In this document: positions 22,545 through 31,722 of the stretch, piece after piece
Position numbering within the stretch: position 1 is the stretch's first letter
Layout: every line of letters starts with the position of its first letter
Source of the DNA: Endozoicomonas ascidiicola
GTDB lineage: Bacteria > Pseudomonadota > Gammaproteobacteria > Pseudomonadales > Endozoicomonadaceae
Assembly (NCBI RefSeq): GCF_001646945.1
Contig: NZ_LUTV01000001.1
Span: forward strand, 341,240 to 379,583
DNA length: 38,344 nucleotides
Reading direction: 5' to 3'
Notes under the pieces: generated by a model
Database searches by the model: none
Told to the model about the DNA's origin: nothing
The model's input: the letters and a program-made list of their open reading frames with translations, nothing else
Position numbers and translations under genes: made by a program

Positions 22545-25500
22545 CTATTCTGTTTCACACACGCTACCATTCAAACTAAAACTGTCTGGTATGATCATTG
22601 CACCGGACTTATTTCCCTGGAATCCAAAAGAAACACTTCCGCCAGCCGCAATGTTACCATTCCAATGTCCAGCCGGATTAGTCGCAGTGATCTGCTGTCC
22701 GCTTGAAGTTAGGGTGGCATTCCAGCCACTGGTAATAACCTGCCCGTTACCCAGTAGGAAGTTCAGGTCAAAACCTCTGACCACTTCACTGCCGGTGTTA
22801 TGGATAGACACATCCACTTGAAACCCAGACCCCCAGTCCTGCATGACACGGTAATCAATACGGCAGTTGCCGTTGGCTCCAATTTCGACTGTTGCCTCCG
22901 GTGATAGAGACGCAGTAAGGCCTTGGTTATGCAATGCTTTTACCTGCAGACGATATACACCAGGTTCATCTGGCGTCCAGCTGACTTCGTAGGGCTTTGT
23001 GCTGGATACGCCAGCAAGTTGTCCATCCACAAAGTACTCTACAGCGCTAACCGCAGATAAGTTTGATTCCAACTCAAGAGTGACACTGTCAGACTTGATC
23101 GTTGTACCGTTCTCGATACCTTTCAGCCCTAATTGAATAGTACTTTCAGGCGCATCAGGACTACTGCCGTCTATCTGCAAGAGATAAGCTGTGAGTTGGT
23201 TAACCTCGGTCGCCGACAAGTCTGCTGTTTTACCGTGAGCATTATTGAAACCGAACAGTTCACTTACGGTTTCTGCAGAACCATCATGGAGATAAGGCGC
23301 TGTGTGGGATAGATCCCTCAATGTCGGTGTGTCCAACCCGGAAAGTACACTGCTTAGCCGCTGACCGGAGGCTGAGCTCAGAGTGCCTACGTCGTGCATC
23401 AGCCCTTTTGGACTGTCGGTGTAACCGGTACCGCTATGGCAACTGGCACAGTTGGCCTGATCGAATAACACTTTGCCGGCCTGCGCATCGGCGGTGAGAT
23501 CACCACTCTCTGTGCGATTAGAGCTAGGATCAAAGTCTTTTAAGGACGCGACATATGCAGCCAGGGCGTCGAGTTCGGAAGAGAGCCCTGTTTTGAGCGT
23601 GCCCAGTGGATGGTTTACACCTTCCAGGTTGAAACTGGCATTGGACATCAGGCCAGTACCTGCTGCAGGTCCACGAATGTCATGCTCGAAGTCCTGAATC
23701 TCATCAAAGTTGGCGCTCCAGTGAACACGACCATGATCTGTACCACCACGGCCTTTTAACGAGATGGTGTTACGCAGACCTTCGCCGCGATTTGTGAAAT
23801 CCCATACACGGCCATCTTGTTCACCATCAAGATGGCAGGTAGCACAGGTGAGATAGCCATCCATGGTCATACGGGTATCAGCAGCGTTATAGAAAATCTG
23901 TTTACCGCGCAGTACTTCGGCATCCAGTGCTTCATTACCGACCGTTGAAATAGTAGCCATCAGATTGACTCTGTCGGTGCCATTCGTTAGTAGTTCGGAA
24001 AGGTCAACAACGGATACGGAGCGCCCCATGAAATTTTTTACATATAGGCGCTGACCCGATTGATCCAGAAGTAATGCCTGAGGTGCAAGACCAACATCGA
24101 TACGTGCAATTTCCTGACCACTGTTGGGATTCAAGACAATCACTCGATTACTGCCTTGCATTGCGACAAACAGATAGCTGCCGTATTGATCATAAGTGAC
24201 CGCCGATGGCTGGGAGTGGTTATCAATATCAACCCTCTGGTTTGTTGATTCTTCACTTGCGTTGATATTGAGGGAAGCGACCAGGCTTCTGACCGTGGTT
24301 TCAAAAGACGGTACTTGGCCATCTTTGAATAACCCTCGCAGTACATTGTCTTTTTTACCGACCACCCGAGCACTTTGACCATCAGGGTGTAAGGCTAAAC
24401 CCGTAAGGTAGTTGGGGATGCCTCGACCACCGGTGCTGGTATCCAGTGTCGTAGTATCCATCGGTAATGGTATTTGCGTTTGCAGGCTTAATGTCCCCGG
24501 ATTTAAGTTCCAGACTTCGCCTTGATCCTGCGATGAAATAAAGCGGCTGACCAGCAGGGTATTGCCATCCAGCGATTGCCCAAGTGCTCGCGGGGTACTG
24601 CCAACAGAGACACGGTTAATCAGACTGTGATCAGCGCTATTAAATTGCGATACGGAACCTGAGCCCATTTCAGATACATAGACAGAATGCTGGTCAACGC
24701 TTGCCATTATCGCTATTGGTTTGGCACCGTAAGGCAATGGCAAGGTATCAACAATGTTGCCGCTGCTTGTATTGATGACCATGACTTCACTGCTATCACG
24801 ACAGGCTACCCAGAAGTTGTCGTTTGCCCGGGTGATAGATACCGGATCATCACAGACAGAAATTTCCTGCATTACGGTGAGAGTGTCTGTATTGATCAAA
24901 GCAAGACTGTTGTTGTCTGGATTGACTGCTGCGAGCGTACTCAACTCATTGTGCATTGCCAGCTGTGAAGACTGTGCCGGCATACCCTCGTACAATTCTT
25001 CAACAACGACAACCCGTAGAGTCTGGCTGATGATATTGCCGCCGGGGTCTCGCACCTGAAGGCTGACAGTGTGTAATCCCGGTGTCGTAAAGGCATAGGT
25101 GATATCGGGTGAATTGGACCAGCTATTGCTGCCATTGCCAAAGTCCCATCGGTATTCCAGTGTGTCGCCCTGTTCATCAGAAGCCCGGGCTGAGATAGCA
25201 ATGGTTTCATCCTGAAGTATGGGGCCTTCAACGCTTAGATCAATGCCTTCAAAGATAGGTGCCGGGTCGTCATTGACTTCAGAGCCGGTGGAAAAGAGAA
25301 AACTGAACTCTTCAAAACCATTTCCGGCAACATCTTTAACGCCATTATTAATAAACGTCACCCGATAGGTGCTATCAGGGTTCAGCAGTTGTTGTGGGGT
25401 AAAGTTCACTGTCTGATAGCTGGTGCTGACAATATCGCCGGGGATTAAGTCCGGCGTACCTACTTTCCGAAGTTGAATATTGGTATCCGTCAGTGTGCGT

Positions 25501-26678
25501 TCATCCAATATTTCACTAATGGAGAAACCAACGACGGTGGTCAAAGGCTGGCCAGTGGCATTGGCAAACGGATGGTGAAAACCTACTTCTGGTGGTCGTG
25601 TATCAAGACCATCCTGGTGGGAATAAAAGAAGGTTTTGCCATCGCCACCGTTTGATCCGCTGATGGCCAGAAGATTACCAAGAGGCATCCACTGGAAATC
25701 AAGGAAGGTATCCGGCCATGGTCCGGGTGCTTCGATTTTCTGTTCAACTTTCAGTGTTTCCAGGTTGATTTTAACCCCGTAGCTATCGCTGCCGGCAAAA
25801 CCGTATTCATCCTGGAAGTACATGTAACGACCTGGTGAATCCGAAAATGGGACGCCACCGGCATATTTGAGATCGGTGGGATCGGAGAAATCAATCATTA
25901 CCAGATTGTTTTTATCTTCATTGGCGTCGTTACCATTCAGAAATACGACTTTGTCGCGCCATACATGGTAAGTGGTTGTGTACTGATTAAAATTACCCAC
26001 CAGAGAGTCAAGCAGGCGGATATTATCGGGATCACCAATATCAAATACTGCCAGACCATTGCCCTGTACAAACATCAGGTTACCAATACGAAAACGCAGG
26101 CTGCTGTTGATGCCTGCATTGTCCATAGAAAACGTAGAGGTAATGGTGTTTGGGTTCTGGTCCGGATTAGCAAAACGTAAATCGTGGACATTGCTGCCAC
26201 TGGTGCCAGTGGGGAATGTTTCCAGTACCTGCCACTTTTCCAGCTGGCCAGACTTGTTGATGGGAACGGGGACGTTAGGGGCTGTCCAGGGTTTGAGGTC
26301 AAGCATATCGGACAGGTTAAGGAAATTGTAATGACTGTCACCCAGTTCAGGCATGGAGTATTCCCGCCAGAAGAGGTCCGTATTGAGTTTGTACCAGCGA
26401 TGACCATTATCTCCGTACTTGTTTTCGTGAACCATCACCGGGGAGATAGGGTCAGATACATCCCATAAGCTGGTGCTGCCCTGACCCATCAGGTATAAGT
26501 ATCCTCGATGGAAGGTGACCATACGACCACCGTAGGGTACATGGCTGAGGTATTCACCGGCACTGTAGCCAGTTTGAGGGACACCGGGGCCGTTGCTGCC
26601 ATCGTAGTTGGCATTGGCTGCCGACAGTGCCGATGACAGAAGCAACGTCACGGCGCTTCTGAAGGGATTGATTCGCAT
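22545..26678 (-). CDS. Secreted CBM2-tagged diheme cytochrome with beta-propeller, PKD and Ig-like domains
   Basis: A 1377-residue exported protein. A signal peptide (1-23) is followed by a LVIVD/propeller-like region (about 40-350; repeated VFDIGDPDNI and MIDFSDPTDL motifs). Then come an SbsA-type Ig-like domain (about 360-465), a PKD domain (about 475-560, WDFGNGS), and a YncE/YVTN-like beta-propeller (about 570-900). A MauG/CCP-like diheme domain has CATCH at 945-949 and CASCH at 1077-1081. An Ig-like linker domain (about 1180-1268) and a C-terminal CBM2 (about 1272-1374, conserved Trp and paired Cys) complete it. Propeller-plus-diheme proteins are known as redox or surface proteins; fusion to a cellulose-binding module beside GH6 and GH5 genes suggests electron transfer at cellulose. 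That role is inferred; no electron acceptor is encoded in the window. Confidence 0.85.
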   Translation of the reverse strand: MRINPFRSAVTLLLSSALSAANANYDGSNGPGVPQTGYSAGEYLSHVPYGGRMVTFHRGYLYLMGQGSTSLWDVSDPISPVMVHENKYGDNGHRWYKLNTDLFWREYSMPELGDSHYNFLNLSDMLDLKPWTAPNVPVPINKSGQLEKWQVLETFPTGTSGSNVHDLRFANPDQNPNTITSTFSMDNAGINSSLRFRIGNLMFVQGNGLAVFDIGDPDNIRLLDSLVGNFNQYTTTYHVWRDKVVFLNGNDANEDKNNLVMIDFSDPTDLKYAGGVPFSDSPGRYMYFQDEYGFAGSDSYGVKINLETLKVEQKIEAPGPWPDTFLDFQWMPLGNLLAISGSNGGDGKTFFYSHQDGLDTRPPEVGFHHPFANATGQPLTTVVGFSISEILDERTLTDTNIQLRKVGTPDLIPGDIVSTSYQTVNFTPQQLLNPDSTYRVTFINNGVKDVAGNGFEEFSFLFSTGSEVNDDPAPIFEGIDLSVEGPILQDETIAISARASDEQGDTLEYRWDFGNGSNSWSNSPDITYAFTTPGLHTVSLQVRDPGGNIISQTLRVVVVEELYEGMPAQSSQLAMHNELSTLAAVNPDNNSLALINTDTLTVMQEISVCDDPVSITRANDNFWVACRDSSEVMVINTSSGNIVDTLPLPYGAKPIAIMASVDQHSVYVSEMGSGSVSQFNSADHSLINRVSVGSTPRALGQSLDGNTLLVSRFISSQDQGEVWNLNPGTLSLQTQIPLPMDTTTLDTSTGGRGIPNYLTGLALHPDGQSARVVGKKDNVLRGLFKDGQVPSFETTVRSLVASLNINASEESTNQRVDIDNHSQPSAVTYDQYGSYLFVAMQGSNRVIVLNPNSGQEIARIDVGLAPQALLLDQSGQRLYVKNFMGRSVSVVDLSELLTNGTDRVNLMATISTVGNEALDAEVLRGKQIFYNAADTRMTMDGYLTCATCHLDGEQDGRVWDFTNRGEGLRNTISLKGRGGTDHGRVHWSANFDEIQDFEHDIRGPAAGTGLMSNASFNLEGVNHPLGTLKTGLSSELDALAAYVASLKDFDPSSNRTESGDLTADAQAGKVLFDQANCASCHSGTGYTDSPKGLMHDVGTLSSASGQRLSSVLSGLDTPTLRDLSHTAPYLHDGSAETVSELFGFNNAHGKTADLSATEVNQLTAYLLQIDGSSPDAPESTIQLGLKGIENGTTIKSDSVTLELESNLSAVSAVEYFVDGQLAGVSSTKPYEVSWTPDEPGVYRLQVKALHNQGLTASLSPEATVEIGANGNCRIDYRVMQDWGSGFQVDVSIHNTGSEVVRGFDLNFLLGNGQVITSGWNATLTSSGQQITATNPAGHWNGNIAAGGSVSFGFQGNKSGAMIIPDSFSLNGSVCETE

Positions 26679-26727
26679 TGGATTAGTCCTGTTTTATTAT
26701 TTTTCTGGACAGCATTAAGCGACAACT

Positions 26728-26762
26728 AAGAGCGGCATATCATGGATAGATACGCCGCTCTT
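26728..26762 (-). terminator. Hairpin terminator after GH5 gene
   Basis: AAGAGCGGCATATC and GATACGCCGCTCTT form a 14-bp stem (one G-U) with a 7-base loop, 10 bases beyond the GH5 stop. T content after the stem on the minus strand is weak (TTAGTTG), so it may only partly terminate and let some transcription reach the cytochrome gene. Confidence 0.65.
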
Positions 26763-26771
26763 TATCAGGTG

Positions 26772-28880
26772 TTAATTAACGACACATTCCGGAGACGCAA
26801 AGCTGCCACCATGTCCACCTTGCATACCAAAGCTATGACTTGAGCCAGGCTGCAATGTTGAATAGGACGGAGATGTAGCTTTCAGACGGTTTGGTGCAAC
26901 CTGCTCCAAAGTGGCGTTCCAGCCATTGACCAGAGTGACATCCTGAGGGAAGACCAGTTCTACGCTCCAGCTCTTGATCTCCTTGCTGGTGGTGTTAGTG
27001 ACCTGGACATTGTTCAGAACAAATCCGCTATTCCAGATGTTTTCAGTGCCACTGCTGCAGCTAAGGCTTAATGCAACCACATCAATACTGGTTGTGGCTA
27101 TTGCCCCAAGTGGTTGCTGCTGTGCATCCACCGCCGAAATGGTGATTGGATAGCTACCTAACTGAATAGGAGCGGTAAACACGGTACTGGTTTGATCCAT
27201 GACAACCGTCGTTTGACCTTCGAACTCTGCTTGATACCCCGCCGCATTTTCAACAACAACATCAATGGAGAAATCTTTACCGGATTCAACAGTATCTGGA
27301 GCGCTGATTGTTATCGTGGCTGGAAGTGAATCCAGTGCCTGCAGAGCGATGCTGTCGGTGATATCTAGCTCAGTACCGTTTGCACTGGTGCCTTTTAACG
27401 TGACAGTAAAGTTTTGTTCCGTGGTTGGAGCGGTCAGTGATAGGGTGGTGTCAGCGCTTGAAGCTACAAAGGCTCCATTAATGTAAGCGTTTACACCGGC
27501 TACTTTATTTCGACTCAGTCGTACGTCAAAGGGCTGCCCCGTCAATACAACAGTGCCCGCCTCTGGTGACTTAATGCCTACCGATGGCGACAGTGACGCG
27601 TAGTAATCAGTCACTGTCGTACCGACGGTTGCATTACCCAGAGGAACCTGATGGTCCAGTCCAATGAACTTGCCATTGGGTGCTCGCCAGAGGGAGGGCT
27701 CAAACAGAGCGTATTTGGCTTCATCCCAGGTGGTCCAGTCATTGTTCAGAAGACCGCCGGTGTCACCGGAGTTGGGGTTGATGCACCAAAAGGTGTGGTG
27801 AAGTTTATTTTCGATGATCAAATCACGAATAGCGACCATCCACTTTTCGTTATCGCCGCCATCCATGAAACCGCCCCACTCACCAATCAGCAGTGGCGCA
27901 ATCTCTTCTTCGTGGATGAACATCCAGTTGTCTTTCCAGACATCTTCATAAAGCGTTTGCTTGTTGAATCCTTCGTAGAACCAGGGTTGTTGATAAACAA
28001 GAGGACCATAGTCGTGTGGTGAGTAAACCAGTTGATCCTGGTTGTCGCCAAGATCGATAGGAAAGTCGCGAACACCCTGAAGGTTTCCGCCCCACCAGTT
28101 GTTGTGATAGTCGTCTTCTGTCTGGGCAGTCCAGGTAATACCATCAATAGGATAGGACTCGATACCTTCACAGAGCACCAGCATATTGGGGTTAATGGCC
28201 AGAATACGATTGGAGGCCGTTTCGCAGGCGTATTTCCAGTTGTTTATGTCAGTAGAGTCATCCCACTTGGCAAATTCCGGGTCAGCCCAGGGTTTACCAT
28301 GTGGCTCGTTTTCGATATCCATCGCCAGAATGGTGTCGTCGTTTACATAGCGGGCAGTGACCCATTCCCAGGTGCTGTAGAAAATTTCCGGGGTGATCTG
28401 GCCTTTGTACCACATGGTGTAAACGTGACCAGAGTTGTCTGCTTCAGCACTGTGGACATCCAACATCACTTTGACGCCGTATTGTTTCGCCACGGCGAGA
28501 AAATGATCAAAGATTTCCAGATCGGTTTTGTCCACCAGATTGGGGTTGGTTGATGTGTTTACATTGGGGACGGAGGCTTGCCCCTGACTCCACTCATAGA
28601 GCAGTTCCGTCGAAATGGGCACTCTTAACAGGTTGATACCGCGTTCAGCAATAGACTGAACCGTGGTTTCCAGATTCACTGACCAGAGACCGTGGAAGGT
28701 TCGTTCAGTGGCATTAAAACCAAACCAGTTGGCGCCGGTCAGCCAGACGGGTTGGCCATCTATGTCGACGATCTGGTTACCTTCCACATGGAGCCAATCG
28801 TCATCCGGCAGCGGTGCCGAGTGAGCAAGTGACGAGTACATGAAACCTGCAAGAGCGCAGGAGAGTAGCTTTCTTTTCAT
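26772..28880 (-). CDS. Secreted GH5-family beta-glycosidase (probable cellulase) with C-terminal CBM2
   Basis: A 702-residue enzyme. A signal peptide (about 1-21) is followed by a GH5 barrel (about 25-410) with catalytic acid/base E192 in DIENEPHG and nucleophile E334 in LIGEWGG. The motifs LTGANWFGF, MLDVHSAEAD and YSPHDYGP are also family-typical. Two Ig-like domains (about 430-515 and 515-600) lead to a CBM2 (about 605-702, WNSGFVLNNVQVTN, GWNATLEQ, Cys pair at the ends). It should cleave beta-1,4-glucan, though GH5 also includes mannanases and the subfamily cannot be fixed from this reading. I start at ATG 28880 with GGAAG upstream; the longer frame adds 18 residues ahead of the signal peptide. 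It lies 88 bases after the GH6 gene. Confidence 0.88.
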   Translation of the reverse strand: MKRKLLSCALAGFMYSSLAHSAPLPDDDWLHVEGNQIVDIDGQPVWLTGANWFGFNATERTFHGLWSVNLETTVQSIAERGINLLRVPISTELLYEWSQGQASVPNVNTSTNPNLVDKTDLEIFDHFLAVAKQYGVKVMLDVHSAEADNSGHVYTMWYKGQITPEIFYSTWEWVTARYVNDDTILAMDIENEPHGKPWADPEFAKWDDSTDINNWKYACETASNRILAINPNMLVLCEGIESYPIDGITWTAQTEDDYHNNWWGGNLQGVRDFPIDLGDNQDQLVYSPHDYGPLVYQQPWFYEGFNKQTLYEDVWKDNWMFIHEEEIAPLLIGEWGGFMDGGDNEKWMVAIRDLIIENKLHHTFWCINPNSGDTGGLLNNDWTTWDEAKYALFEPSLWRAPNGKFIGLDHQVPLGNATVGTTVTDYYASLSPSVGIKSPEAGTVVLTGQPFDVRLSRNKVAGVNAYINGAFVASSADTTLSLTAPTTEQNFTVTLKGTSANGTELDITDSIALQALDSLPATITISAPDTVESGKDFSIDVVVENAAGYQAEFEGQTTVVMDQTSTVFTAPIQLGSYPITISAVDAQQQPLGAIATTSIDVVALSLSCSSGTENIWNSGFVLNNVQVTNTTSKEIKSWSVELVFPQDVTLVNGWNATLEQVAPNRLKATSPSYSTLQPGSSHSFGMQGGHGGSFASPECVVN

Positions 28881-28917
28881 TATTAGTGCTTCCTTTTTTA
28901 GTGGCTCTTCCTCGATA

Positions 28918-28952
28918 TAAACGACAACTATCAAAGTGAGAGTTGTCGTTTA
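28918..28952 (-). terminator. Hairpin between GH6 and GH5 genes
   Basis: TAAACGACAACT and AGTTGTCGTTTA form a perfect 12-bp stem with an 11-base loop, 16 bases after the GH6 stop and 38 bases before the GH5 start. On the minus strand the stem is followed by TATCGAGG, not a T run. It may attenuate or stabilise the GH6 message, giving unequal GH6/GH5 output. Confidence 0.6.
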
Positions 28953-28968
28953 TCAAACAATTAGAGGG

Positions 28969-31176
28969 TTAAAGAGCCGGATAGGCATTCTTGACCAGCA
29001 TACGGAACTGTTCATGGAACCAGGCTCCGGCGGAAGGCGCGTTATCCATGGCGCCTGTCAGTACACCGCCAGAAGTGGTGTATGAAGGGCTGCACATGTG
29101 ATCAAAGCTTTTGCCTTCATCGTCCGGCGTCGTTTGAGTGGAATCACTGGTACCGTCGGACTCGCCGGGAGGCTTGATCCAGACATAGGCTTCAACCACG
29201 CTGTCCGTACCAAAAGGCAGAACCTTGGGCCTTTCCCCGATACCAGCACCGCTGACATTACACCAGTTACCCCTGTGGGCGCGGCGATCCAGCTTGCTAT
29301 CGATAACGTATTGGTCTTCAGACGCCGCATCTTCATTGGCAGAAGCCGGGCGATTTGAACCACCCCAACCATTACGGGAGGTGTCAATGAGCATGGCTAC
29401 ATCCTGTGGGAAGCCATTAGCGACAAAGGCACTGTGCAGTTGTTCGGCAAAATCTTTCTCATCGAATACAGGGTTCCATTCGTAATAACTGCTAGACATG
29501 ACGCCCATGTAATTACCATCAAAATCAAACTCTGGGTCATCCAGATAGATTTCTTCGGTTGGGGTGTAGTTAGAGACGTTGGAAATAAAACCGTCCAGCA
29601 CACTCATATCGCCACCGGCAGCACCACGTACGACATCGGTATACAAACTGATGGCGCCACGCAGGTTAGATTCCCAGCCAAGCCAGCCGGAATGGGCGAT
29701 GTCCAGATAGGTATAGACATTATCCAGTTCAGCGAATGCGCCGATCGCGTGTTGTATGCCTTTGACGTAGGTGCCATCACTCTTCACCTGACCACACTTC
29801 AGTACAGTGGTGTTGGTGACCAGATTGGGCAGAGAATCTGGCTCCAGTACGGCAACAATCCGCAGATCTTTAAATCGTGCATCGCCGGCGATATCCGCAA
29901 TTACATCAATGTAGTCCCGTTTGTAGATATTCAAACCATCCTGCTTGGAATGCAGAGTGCCATTGGAAGCCAGTGCGGCGCAGTCTCGATCAGGCAGGTT
30001 ATAAACGACAATGGTTACCGTCATGGGTACGCCGTGTTCTTTTTGCAGTAATGCCTGCTCGAAATGTTGCTCAAGGCTCAGGCGATTACTGTTGTTTGCG
30101 CCCCCGTAAATCGCTTCAATGCGATCCAGCCAGACAGCAGTTGGGACGTCTCGCATTTTCTCCATTTTGGCTTTTAGGGTTGGGTTGGTTTCCTGTGCAA
30201 TAGAACGATCCACAAGATTGGCATAATCAGGGTTGATATAAGCGGTTGCGCCAAGAAACGGGTTATTGACATGCGCGATCTCACTTGGTGCAGTTATGAC
30301 CACCTGACGTGTAATGCTTGAGGTGTTTTTGCCGTCACTGACGACCAGAGATACAGTGAATTGCCCAGCACTGGTGTAATCATGTCTGACAAGACTGTCT
30401 TGTGCGGTATTACCGTCACCAAGATCCCAGCTAAATGACAATGTGTCATTTTCTGCGTCCGAGCTTCTAGCGGCATCAAGGGTGACGCTGTAGCCGTTCA
30501 TATAGACGTCAATACTGGCTACCGGAGGTGTGTTTACGGTGAGAGTATCAACGGTCACTACCTGATTGAACGTATGACTGAGTTCACCGTCGTGAACGAT
30601 CAGAGTGACCGTGTATTGACCAGTTTGAGCGTAGTTATGTTCAGGAGAAATACCTTGAGCCTGAGTGTTATCGCCGAAGTCCCAGGTGTAGGTAAGTTCG
30701 TCACCATCAGGGTCAGAGCTGTCAGCCGCATTGAACACAACTTCGGAATTGTTTTGTGCCAGAGTAAAGCTGGCGACAGGTGCCTGATTATCAACGCCAA
30801 GCCCGCAATGATCGCCATTAATCTCTGGGATTTTGGCGGGGCTGTTCGCCGATCCTTTATTACCTTGTACACCAAAAGAAACGGTTTGACCGGGCGCAAT
30901 AGAGCCGTTCCAACCAAGGTTGGAGGCGTTATAGGTTCCGGTGCCTGATACGGTGGCATTCCAGTGAGAGGTGATGACCGAGCCATCAGCATACTGCCAG
31001 TTTACATTCCATCCATTAATTGGCTCGGCTTTTGCGTTGGTTATTGCAATGGTGCCAACGAACCCTGTATTCCATTCGTTAGCAATTTGGTATGAACAGT
31101 CTGCGGAGGCTATTTCTGGCATACAACTAAATAGCAATGCTAAAGCAGCGCCTTTTGCTGAGAGGGTATTTTTCAT
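28969..31176 (-). CDS. Secreted GH6 cellulase (cellobiohydrolase-like) with CBM2 and two PKD domains
   Basis: A 735-residue enzyme. A signal peptide (about 1-25) precedes a CBM2 (about 26-124), PKD1 (about 131-212, TWDFGDN), PKD2 (about 215-297, SWDLGDG) and a GH6 catalytic domain (about 300-735). GH6 residues visible are the catalytic acid D398 in PDRDC, D447 in LEPDSL, D674 in ESDGTSD, and the Cys pairs C399/C461 and C639/C695. GH6 enzymes attack cellulose with inversion, from the non-reducing end when exo-acting; exo or endo mode is not settled here. ATG 31176 has AGGA eight bases upstream; ATG 31185 overlaps that site. First of three minus-strand CBM2 genes. Confidence 0.93.
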   Translation of the reverse strand: MKNTLSAKGAALALLFSCMPEIASADCSYQIANEWNTGFVGTIAITNAKAEPINGWNVNWQYADGSVITSHWNATVSGTGTYNASNLGWNGSIAPGQTVSFGVQGNKGSANSPAKIPEINGDHCGLGVDNQAPVASFTLAQNNSEVVFNAADSSDPDGDELTYTWDFGDNTQAQGISPEHNYAQTGQYTVTLIVHDGELSHTFNQVVTVDTLTVNTPPVASIDVYMNGYSVTLDAARSSDAENDTLSFSWDLGDGNTAQDSLVRHDYTSAGQFTVSLVVSDGKNTSSITRQVVITAPSEIAHVNNPFLGATAYINPDYANLVDRSIAQETNPTLKAKMEKMRDVPTAVWLDRIEAIYGGANNSNRLSLEQHFEQALLQKEHGVPMTVTIVVYNLPDRDCAALASNGTLHSKQDGLNIYKRDYIDVIADIAGDARFKDLRIVAVLEPDSLPNLVTNTTVLKCGQVKSDGTYVKGIQHAIGAFAELDNVYTYLDIAHSGWLGWESNLRGAISLYTDVVRGAAGGDMSVLDGFISNVSNYTPTEEIYLDDPEFDFDGNYMGVMSSSYYEWNPVFDEKDFAEQLHSAFVANGFPQDVAMLIDTSRNGWGGSNRPASANEDAASEDQYVIDSKLDRRAHRGNWCNVSGAGIGERPKVLPFGTDSVVEAYVWIKPPGESDGTSDSTQTTPDDEGKSFDHMCSPSYTTSGGVLTGAMDNAPSAGAWFHEQFRMLVKNAYPAL

Positions 31177-31722
31177 TATTGTCATCCTGGTTTGATTGAT
31201 TGTTGTTTTTAATAACCAGTGTTGCGTTATTTATCTTTTGCAAAGATTTTTTATTGTTCACCTTGCTGAAAGTTTGAAAAAACAATTAATCGTGCACTGT
31301 CTTTTAACTTAATTAACTTTCTTTGCATCATATTGGTGATGAACGGTACTTATACGATATCCCCATAATCTAATGCTGGTGGCAATAAGTGGTTTTGAAA
31401 AAGGTGAAGTAGGTCTTAGTTGCGATTTTCTAATTGTTTTTTTGGGTTTTTGTTTGTTTTTATATGAGTGGTGTTGAATTTTTTTGTTTGTAAATATAAA
31501 CGACTTTTATAGTTTATTGGCTTCTTTTATTAGAAAGTGACAGTTTCTCGGCTTTGTTATTTTCTTAAATCTGAATAAGCTTCATTTTTATGGTGATGGG
31601 TTTAGCCATCAAGGTTTGACAAATAAATGACAATTAAGCATTTTCATAAGGTAAATCCTATTTTTTCAATGAGTTAAGTCGTATTGATGCAAGATTAATA
31701 AGAGAGCTCTAACCACTGGAGC

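Follow-up and report, generated by a model that had tools for sequence, protein, structure and literature searches.

A predicted cellulose-binding di-haem protein encoded beside GH6 and GH5 cellulases in Endozoicomonas ascidiicola

Three adjacent CBM2 genes

The stretch of DNA analysed here (the window) comprises 38,344 nt of the Endozoicomonas ascidiicola genome, positions 341,240-379,583 of the forward strand of contig NZ_LUTV01000001.1 (GCF_001646945.1). It carries three adjacent minus-strand genes whose products bear one carbohydrate-binding module of family 2 (CBM2) apiece: a glycoside hydrolase family 6 (GH6) cellulase, a GH5 cellulase, and a 1377-residue protein with two haem-binding motifs, hereafter called the redox protein. 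We are confident that the redox protein belongs to the cellulase set. With moderate confidence, we further interpret it as a cellulose-anchored di-haem oxidoreductase of the CcP/MauG superfamily that serves as the redox member of this small set.

The GH6 gene (28969..31185; all coordinates given for features are on the minus strand) encodes 738 amino acids. Its product has the Pfam domain order CBM2-PKD-PKD-GH6, with the CBM2 at 30805-31101 (3e-30) and the catalytic domain at about 29128-30207 (8e-101). The GH5 gene (26772..28934) is a 720-residue open reading frame (ORF) when counted from a TTG codon, and its likely start, judged by eye, is the ATG at 28880. Here the order is GH5-(weak Big_7)-CBM2, with the GH5 domain at 27768-28769 (4e-47) and the CBM2 at 26775-27053 (5e-15). 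The redox gene occupies 22545..26678, as defined by its ORF and domains. The first-pass annotation of this DNA had described the same genes in the same order, with an N-terminal CBM2 in the GH6 protein and a C-terminal CBM2 in the other two, and the ORFs and Pfam matches agree with it. Its outer boundary for the set, 31176, is indeed an in-frame ATG of the GH6 ORF, albeit the second one, as the ORF opens at 31185.

The GH6 and GH5 genes are separated by 88 bp (28881..28968, counted from the likely GH5 ATG at 28880) and the GH5 and redox genes by 93 bp (26679..26771), and these short gaps make one transcript for all three genes plausible. Each gap also contains a hairpin more stable than those of 200/200 shuffled sequences (z-score -3.5 in the first gap and -5.9 for the strong hairpin in the second). 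These hairpins may adjust how much of the GH6, GH5, and redox proteins is made relative to one another. The surroundings of the set are unremarkable: a branched-chain amino acid permease gene on one side and, on the opposite side, genes for a PAPS-reductase-type protein and for an EF-Tu-type GTPase. The G+C content of the three genes is about that of the rest of the window.

In the 6.13 Mb host genome, CBM2 was found in three places, all in this gene set. GH5 matched the full-length gene described above and, partially, a 178-residue open frame elsewhere, and GH9 gave no match in the host genome. A profile of the di-haem domain matched the redox gene only. Eleven other genomes of the genus were searched and gave no match, except weak ones in two (E 2e-5 and 7e-5).

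Architecture of the redox protein

The redox protein consists, in order, of a signal peptide, a propeller, a Big_5 immunoglobulin (Ig)-like domain, a PKD domain, a YncE-type propeller, a two-haem domain, a Big_7 Ig-like domain, and the CBM2. By eye, residues 1-23 (26610..26678) form a signal peptide with an AxA-type end, and the protein is presumably secreted. The N-terminal propeller (residues about 24-357; 25608..26609) is weak by sequence (Pfam LVIVD, 0.63), but a structural model of residues 22-480 is built of strands (pLDDT 89, pTM 0.90) and a structure search with it returned generic propellers only. The Big_5 domain follows at residues 359-464 (25287..25604; Pfam E 5e-13) and the PKD domain at residues 485-553 (25020..25226; Pfam E 3e-13). 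Profile matches and a model of residues 564-1180 (pLDDT 91, pTM 0.93) define the YncE-type propeller (residues about 565-894; 23997..24986). Downstream of the di-haem domain (residues about 918-1176; 23151..23927), which was delimited by Pfam, NCBIfam, and PDB profile matches, lie the Big_7 domain (residues 1190-1246; 22941..23111; Pfam E 6e-9) and the C-terminal CBM2 (residues 1272-1374; 22557..22865; Pfam 2e-28). Three Trp residues of this CBM2 align with those of PDB entry 1exg. The two propeller-like regions, the PKD and Ig domains, and the two CxxCH sites that had been read from the letters in the first pass are therefore all present, the first propeller being recognizable mainly by its model and the second by both profile and model.

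Pfam assigned a lactonase/cytochrome-d1-like propeller and cytochrome c to the redox protein, plus CCP_MauG below its cut-off. For the propeller-haem part, the yvtn propeller repeat was above the NCBIfam cut-off, and the models for a PQQ-associated propeller, the hydrazine synthase beta-gamma fusion (NF052342), MbnH, and MauG matched below theirs. The top Foldseek matches of the 564-1180 model are propellers, with hydrazine synthase beta second (TMt 0.77). Because propellers dominate these matches, the search does not inform on the haem fold.

The di-haem domain

Conservation was counted over 92 aligned sequences of the redox-protein family. The haem I site, CATCH (residues 945-949; 23832..23846), keeps C945, C948, and H949 in 92/92 sequences, and the haem II site, CASCH (residues 1077-1081; 23436..23450), likewise keeps C1077, C1080, and H1081 in all 92. 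These four Cys residues are the only ones in the domain. Since both motifs are invariant and the three CBM2 are the only ones found in the genome, the architecture of the gene set is unlikely to be due to chance. The di-haem part is also the best-kept domain of the protein. Its mean identity to the window protein is 56% (78 rows), versus 33-42% for the four other domains measured, among them the YncE part (39%, 78 rows) and the N-terminal propeller (33%, 75 rows).

When a di-haem profile was compared with the PDB, the best match was hydrazine synthase gamma (4e-30), followed by CcP (6e-21), the ‘di-heme enzyme’ 6e1c (4e-14), MauG (4e-6), and 4b2n (0.028). Together with the sub-threshold NCBIfam matches to MbnH and MauG, the CcP match supports, as far as the haem domain is concerned, the first-pass suggestion of a peroxidase-like protein.

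Residues 986-998 (23685..23723) are predicted to hold the inter-haem Trp and the haem I pocket. H986, W987, F991, D992, E993, D996, F997, and E998 of this near-invariant HWxxNFDExQDFE stretch are kept in 92/92 sequences, as are H1131 and G1133 farther along, and N990 and Q995 are kept in 89/92 and 90/92. The invariant W987 lies at +38 from H949, close to the +39 of the Trp of FWDGR in CcP (1iqc), and for this reason it is probably the inter-haem Trp, as placed by spacing rather than superposition. Two His residues sit just before it (H982 in 76/92, H986 in 92/92), which is why we make no claim that haem I is open.

For the second ligand of haem II, His1148 (23235..23237) is favoured over a MauG-type Tyr, which is not evident in the domain, but the loop concerned aligns poorly. 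His1148 aligns with the His of the MHGRT motif of hydrazine synthase gamma. It is kept in 29/29 rows that carry a CBM2 or CBM3, including the window protein, versus 31/63 other rows.

Relatives of the redox protein

We examined the best 80 of 321 related stretches from one scan. Most of these relatives align from within the first 60 residues to residues 1141-1265 or beyond, and their hosts belong to Bacteroidota, Gammaproteobacteria, Verrucomicrobiota, Acidobacteriota, Chloroflexi, KSB1, and others. Matches at E up to 1e-100 were obtained in 18/390 genomes drawn from the order and 5/369 from the class (host genome counted); only the match in the host genome extends through to the end of the CBM2.

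The C-terminal tails vary. CBM2 is present in the window protein, in two Exilibacterium proteins (L049 and L051 in our locus numbering, by alignment), and in L075, and Pfam scans revealed CBM3 in L052, L058, L066, L071, L072, and L088. Other scanned tails carry CBM6 (L077, L079), ricin-type (L037, L039, L042), PA14 (L070), PKD (L073), or TSP3 (L035) domains. Sorting tails of the type IX secretion system (T9SS) occur in both Aquimarina members whose tails were scanned with Pfam (L088, L058), and Pfam RoxA-like_Cyt-c fits several members of the family. L039 and L042, from the same order as the window's host, combine ricin-type lectin ends with LamG or F5/8 inserts, which looks like a core being directed to different glycans through exchange of modules. 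Another member (L047:9293-14239) adds to the family's propeller and di-haem core kelch repeats, a region weakly matching glyoxal oxidase, and a GO-like E-set domain; it may be a fusion of the haem core with a copper-radical oxidase, an enzyme that would produce H2O2. The gammaproteobacterial L075 (KatS3mg121; L075:9338-14795) has two C-terminal CBM2 in two overlapping frames, and its flank gave no cellulase match.

In a quick tree, the window protein and the two Exilibacterium proteins, the three CBM2 rows, group together (SH-aLRT 96). This trio is nested within a larger group (99) of 36 rows, which also takes in every one of the 26 CBM3 rows, plus 7 rows that have neither module. The root is a midpoint guess, and L011, L038, L041, L046, L081, and L075 are not in the tree. 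It is possible that the cellulose link arose once and that the module was swapped later.

Cellulase neighbourhoods

Among 94 loci searched with iterated profiles, a cellulase ORF is present in the flank of 23/28 loci whose redox protein has its own CBM2 or CBM3 versus 1/66 others (Fisher p 4e-16, a value that ignores kinship). A first count with phmmer seeds had given 23/28 versus 0/66; the extra locus is L079, and one GH5 seed of the iterated profiles is L079's own. The 94 loci were counted from 96, as L075 was unmapped because of its two overlapping frames and L081 was omitted; the contig of L081 ends inside the redox gene, with GH48 and GH9 upstream. A second copy in L086 is outside the count. 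Of the 66 loci without CBM2 or CBM3, 49 have 8 kb of flank or more, and in three (L036, L078, L102) the gene extends past the end of the contig, where a CBM may have been lost from view. In 18/28 CBM2/CBM3 loci, the cellulase ORF is directly upstream on the same strand and within 500 bp.

These counts agree with the first-pass proposal of a cellulose-surface redox protein that belongs with cellulases, as far as sequence can indicate. Homologues lying away from carbohydrate genes, which had been named in advance as a counterargument, do occur, and they are found among the members without CBM2 or CBM3 and not, for the most part, among those with one.

Both Exilibacterium loci have a CBM2-GH5 gene on one side of the redox gene and a CBM2-GH6 gene on the other, and at L049 GH48-CBM2 and an AraC-type regulator are encoded as well. 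In Aquimarina and Tenacibaculum, the CBM3 version lies amid GH5, GH9, and GH48 genes; since Exilibacterium has the CBM2 set, the cellulose link extends over two phyla. At Aquimarina L088, the order is GH9-CBM3-PKD-GH48, GH5-PKD, the redox protein with CBM3 and a T9SS tail, and GH5-CBM3. The first of these genes (L088:583-7206) encodes a 2207-residue protein in which a T9SS tail is combined with GH9, CBM3, PKDs, and GH48. In Flexithrix (L079:5195-8857), a member with a CBM6 tail lies just downstream of a GH5-CBM6 gene and falls into the same 36-row tree group.

The largest cluster of neighbouring genes (25 loci, 67 ORFs) consists mostly of cellulases. Clusters of 9 and 8 loci are kinases in the members scanned, and two clusters of 6 Aquimarina loci each were not cellulase-seeded, one of them including a beta-helix/ricin-lectin protein (L074). 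Outside the two Aquimarina clusters, we found no conserved non-cellulase partner gene of note.

Comparison with known systems

Hydrazine synthase beta and gamma have the same order of a YncE-type propeller followed by a di-haem domain, and the gamma MHGRT His that aligns with His1148 is near haem gammaII. As described in the relevant portions of PMC12607021, haem gammaII is bis-His and haem gammaI has a third haem-binding Cys. This third Cys is absent from the window protein, which instead has a CBM2 and a cellulase setting, and hydrazine synthase proper was rejected on account of the missing Cys.

Bacterial di-haem CcP, MauG, MbnH, and BthA share with the window protein two c haems (predicted), an alignable C-terminal half, and a Trp at inter-haem spacing, and the presence of two CxxCH motifs in one alignable di-haem domain is consistent with membership in the CcP/MauG superfamily. 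Unlike these proteins, the window protein has the HWxxNFDExQDFE stretch, shows no conserved distal Gln, Pro, and Glu at their spacing, and joins its di-haem domain to propellers and a CBM. RoxA rubber oxygenase is a di-haem enzyme that acts on a polymer outside the cell, and the di-haem profile matched 4b2n, which we take to be RoxA, only at the E value of 0.028 given above.

Cbp2D and Cbp2E of Cellvibrio and TERTU_3803 of Teredinibacter resemble the redox protein in being CBM-bearing and linked to cellulose use, and Cbp2D and the Teredinibacter X183/X122 proteins also have c-type haem motifs. A CBM2 on a redox protein, a Cbp2D/E-type trait, is found in the window protein. According to the pertinent sections of PMC8981238 and PMC10916295, those proteins use YceI-like X158, X183, X132 (DUF1587 in Cbp2D), or X122. 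Pfam detected neither YceI nor PSD3/DUF1587 in the redox protein at E up to 1, and membership in the Cbp2D/E type was rejected on these domains. PSD3/DUF1587, which is not specific to Cbp2D, gave no match in the host genome and at least one match in each of 8 other genomes searched, which were picked for having CBM2 or a relative of the redox gene. A 2025 Cellvibrio paper (PMC12542752) proposes that Cbp2D/E do more than pass electrons to a lytic polysaccharide monooxygenase (LPMO).

Interpretation and alternatives

In the mechanism that we propose, the CBM2 would tether the redox protein to cellulose, next to the GH6 and GH5 enzymes, and the two propellers and Ig domains would form a platform. 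The reaction would most likely take place at haem I (945-949), and haem II (1077-1081), predicted to be bis-His, would transfer electrons, with Trp987 coupling the two. Peroxide (or O2) would be activated at haem I, and oxidation would be carried out or relayed at the cellulose surface, where it may aid hydrolysis. Activation of peroxide or O2 at haem I seems to us somewhat probable.

Several observations weigh against this interpretation. PMC6405878 describes a distal Gln, Pro, and Glu common to BthA, MauG, and CcP, at +10, +14, and +20 from the Trp position in BthA numbering. The family alignment has no conserved counterpart at the usual spacing, which means that a peroxidase activity should not be taken for granted; candidate distal residues are E993 and E998. 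The figure of 23/28 cellulase-flanked loci is inflated by kinship, because these comprise 18 from Aquimarina, 3 from Tenacibaculum, and 2 from Exilibacterium, and five CBM3 members (L052, L058, L066, L071, L072) have no cellulase in their available flank. The core family is also much wider than cellulose, as 66/94 mapped members lack a CBM2 or CBM3 match and 65 of these 66 lack a cellulase neighbour, and the core chemistry may therefore have nothing to do with cellulose. Finally, among 18 genomes selected from those of the 80 relatives, 14 encode enzymes of family AA10.

Where bacterial cellulases receive oxidative help, most of it is ascribed to AA10 LPMOs, and the first-pass annotation had brought up cellulose-bound cytochromes that feed electrons to such oxygenases. 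Nine of 20 LPMO places in the relatives' genomes were domain-scanned, revealing CBM2 on three (hosts of L049, L051, L075), CBM5/12 on two (hosts of L080, L068), and neither on four. With AA10 so frequent and sometimes bearing CBM2, an LPMO role is possible in some hosts. Yet the host genome (99.9% complete) has no AA10 match, nor do the other four of the 18 (L054, L066, L072, L079), and the redox gene is kept in all five. In addition, none of the ORFs in the 96 loci was recognized as an LPMO by phmmer with nine LPMO seeds. We rejected an LPMO electron donor as the leading explanation in the host genome for want of an AA10 match, and an electron conduit to a copper LPMO, as proposed for Cbp2D, is improbable overall.

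The lack of an AA10 match also bears on whether the redox protein is a peroxidase that protects cellulases and cells by clearing H2O2 from the surface of cellulose, as it removes one source of peroxide in this host. Anchoring on cellulose would place the protein where peroxide arises, and its haem domain is of the CcP type by homology, but the distal Glu of CcP, MauG, and BthA lacks a counterpart at the expected spacing, and we consider this role rather unlikely. We are equally doubtful that a copper-free haem enzyme acts directly on cellulose, by chain cleavage or end oxidation, and replaces an LPMO and Cbp2D in the host genome; the HWxxNFDExQDFE stretch would then tentatively represent a distal pocket unlike known CcP or MauG sites. 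Relatedness to the MbnH and MauG families and the invariant Trp at inter-haem spacing might instead point to the oxidation of a partner protein, such as a cellulase, at one of its residues. This is very improbable, given that MauG's Tyr ligand is not evident and that the neighbour clusters, mostly cellulases in the largest and kinases in those of 9 and 8 loci, offer no obvious partner. Least likely is a haem-bearing adhesin or scaffold without a catalytic role: propellers, Ig-like and PKD domains, and the CBM make up much of the protein, but the haem domain is kept best of all and has invariant acidic residues next to W987.

A keyword search of the open-licence PubMed Central literature, which can miss it, found no description of this architecture. 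The cellulose-anchored di-haem oxidoreductase that we favour would be a different kind of cellulose-binding (predicted) haem protein, one that occurs among cellulase genes in two phyla and with two families of cellulose-binding modules. Its relatives beside cellulases in distantly related bacteria hint at an oxidative step in cellulose breakdown, and its presence in a genome without an AA10 match makes it possible to ask by experiment whether bacteria that degrade cellulose use a redox step that needs no LPMO.

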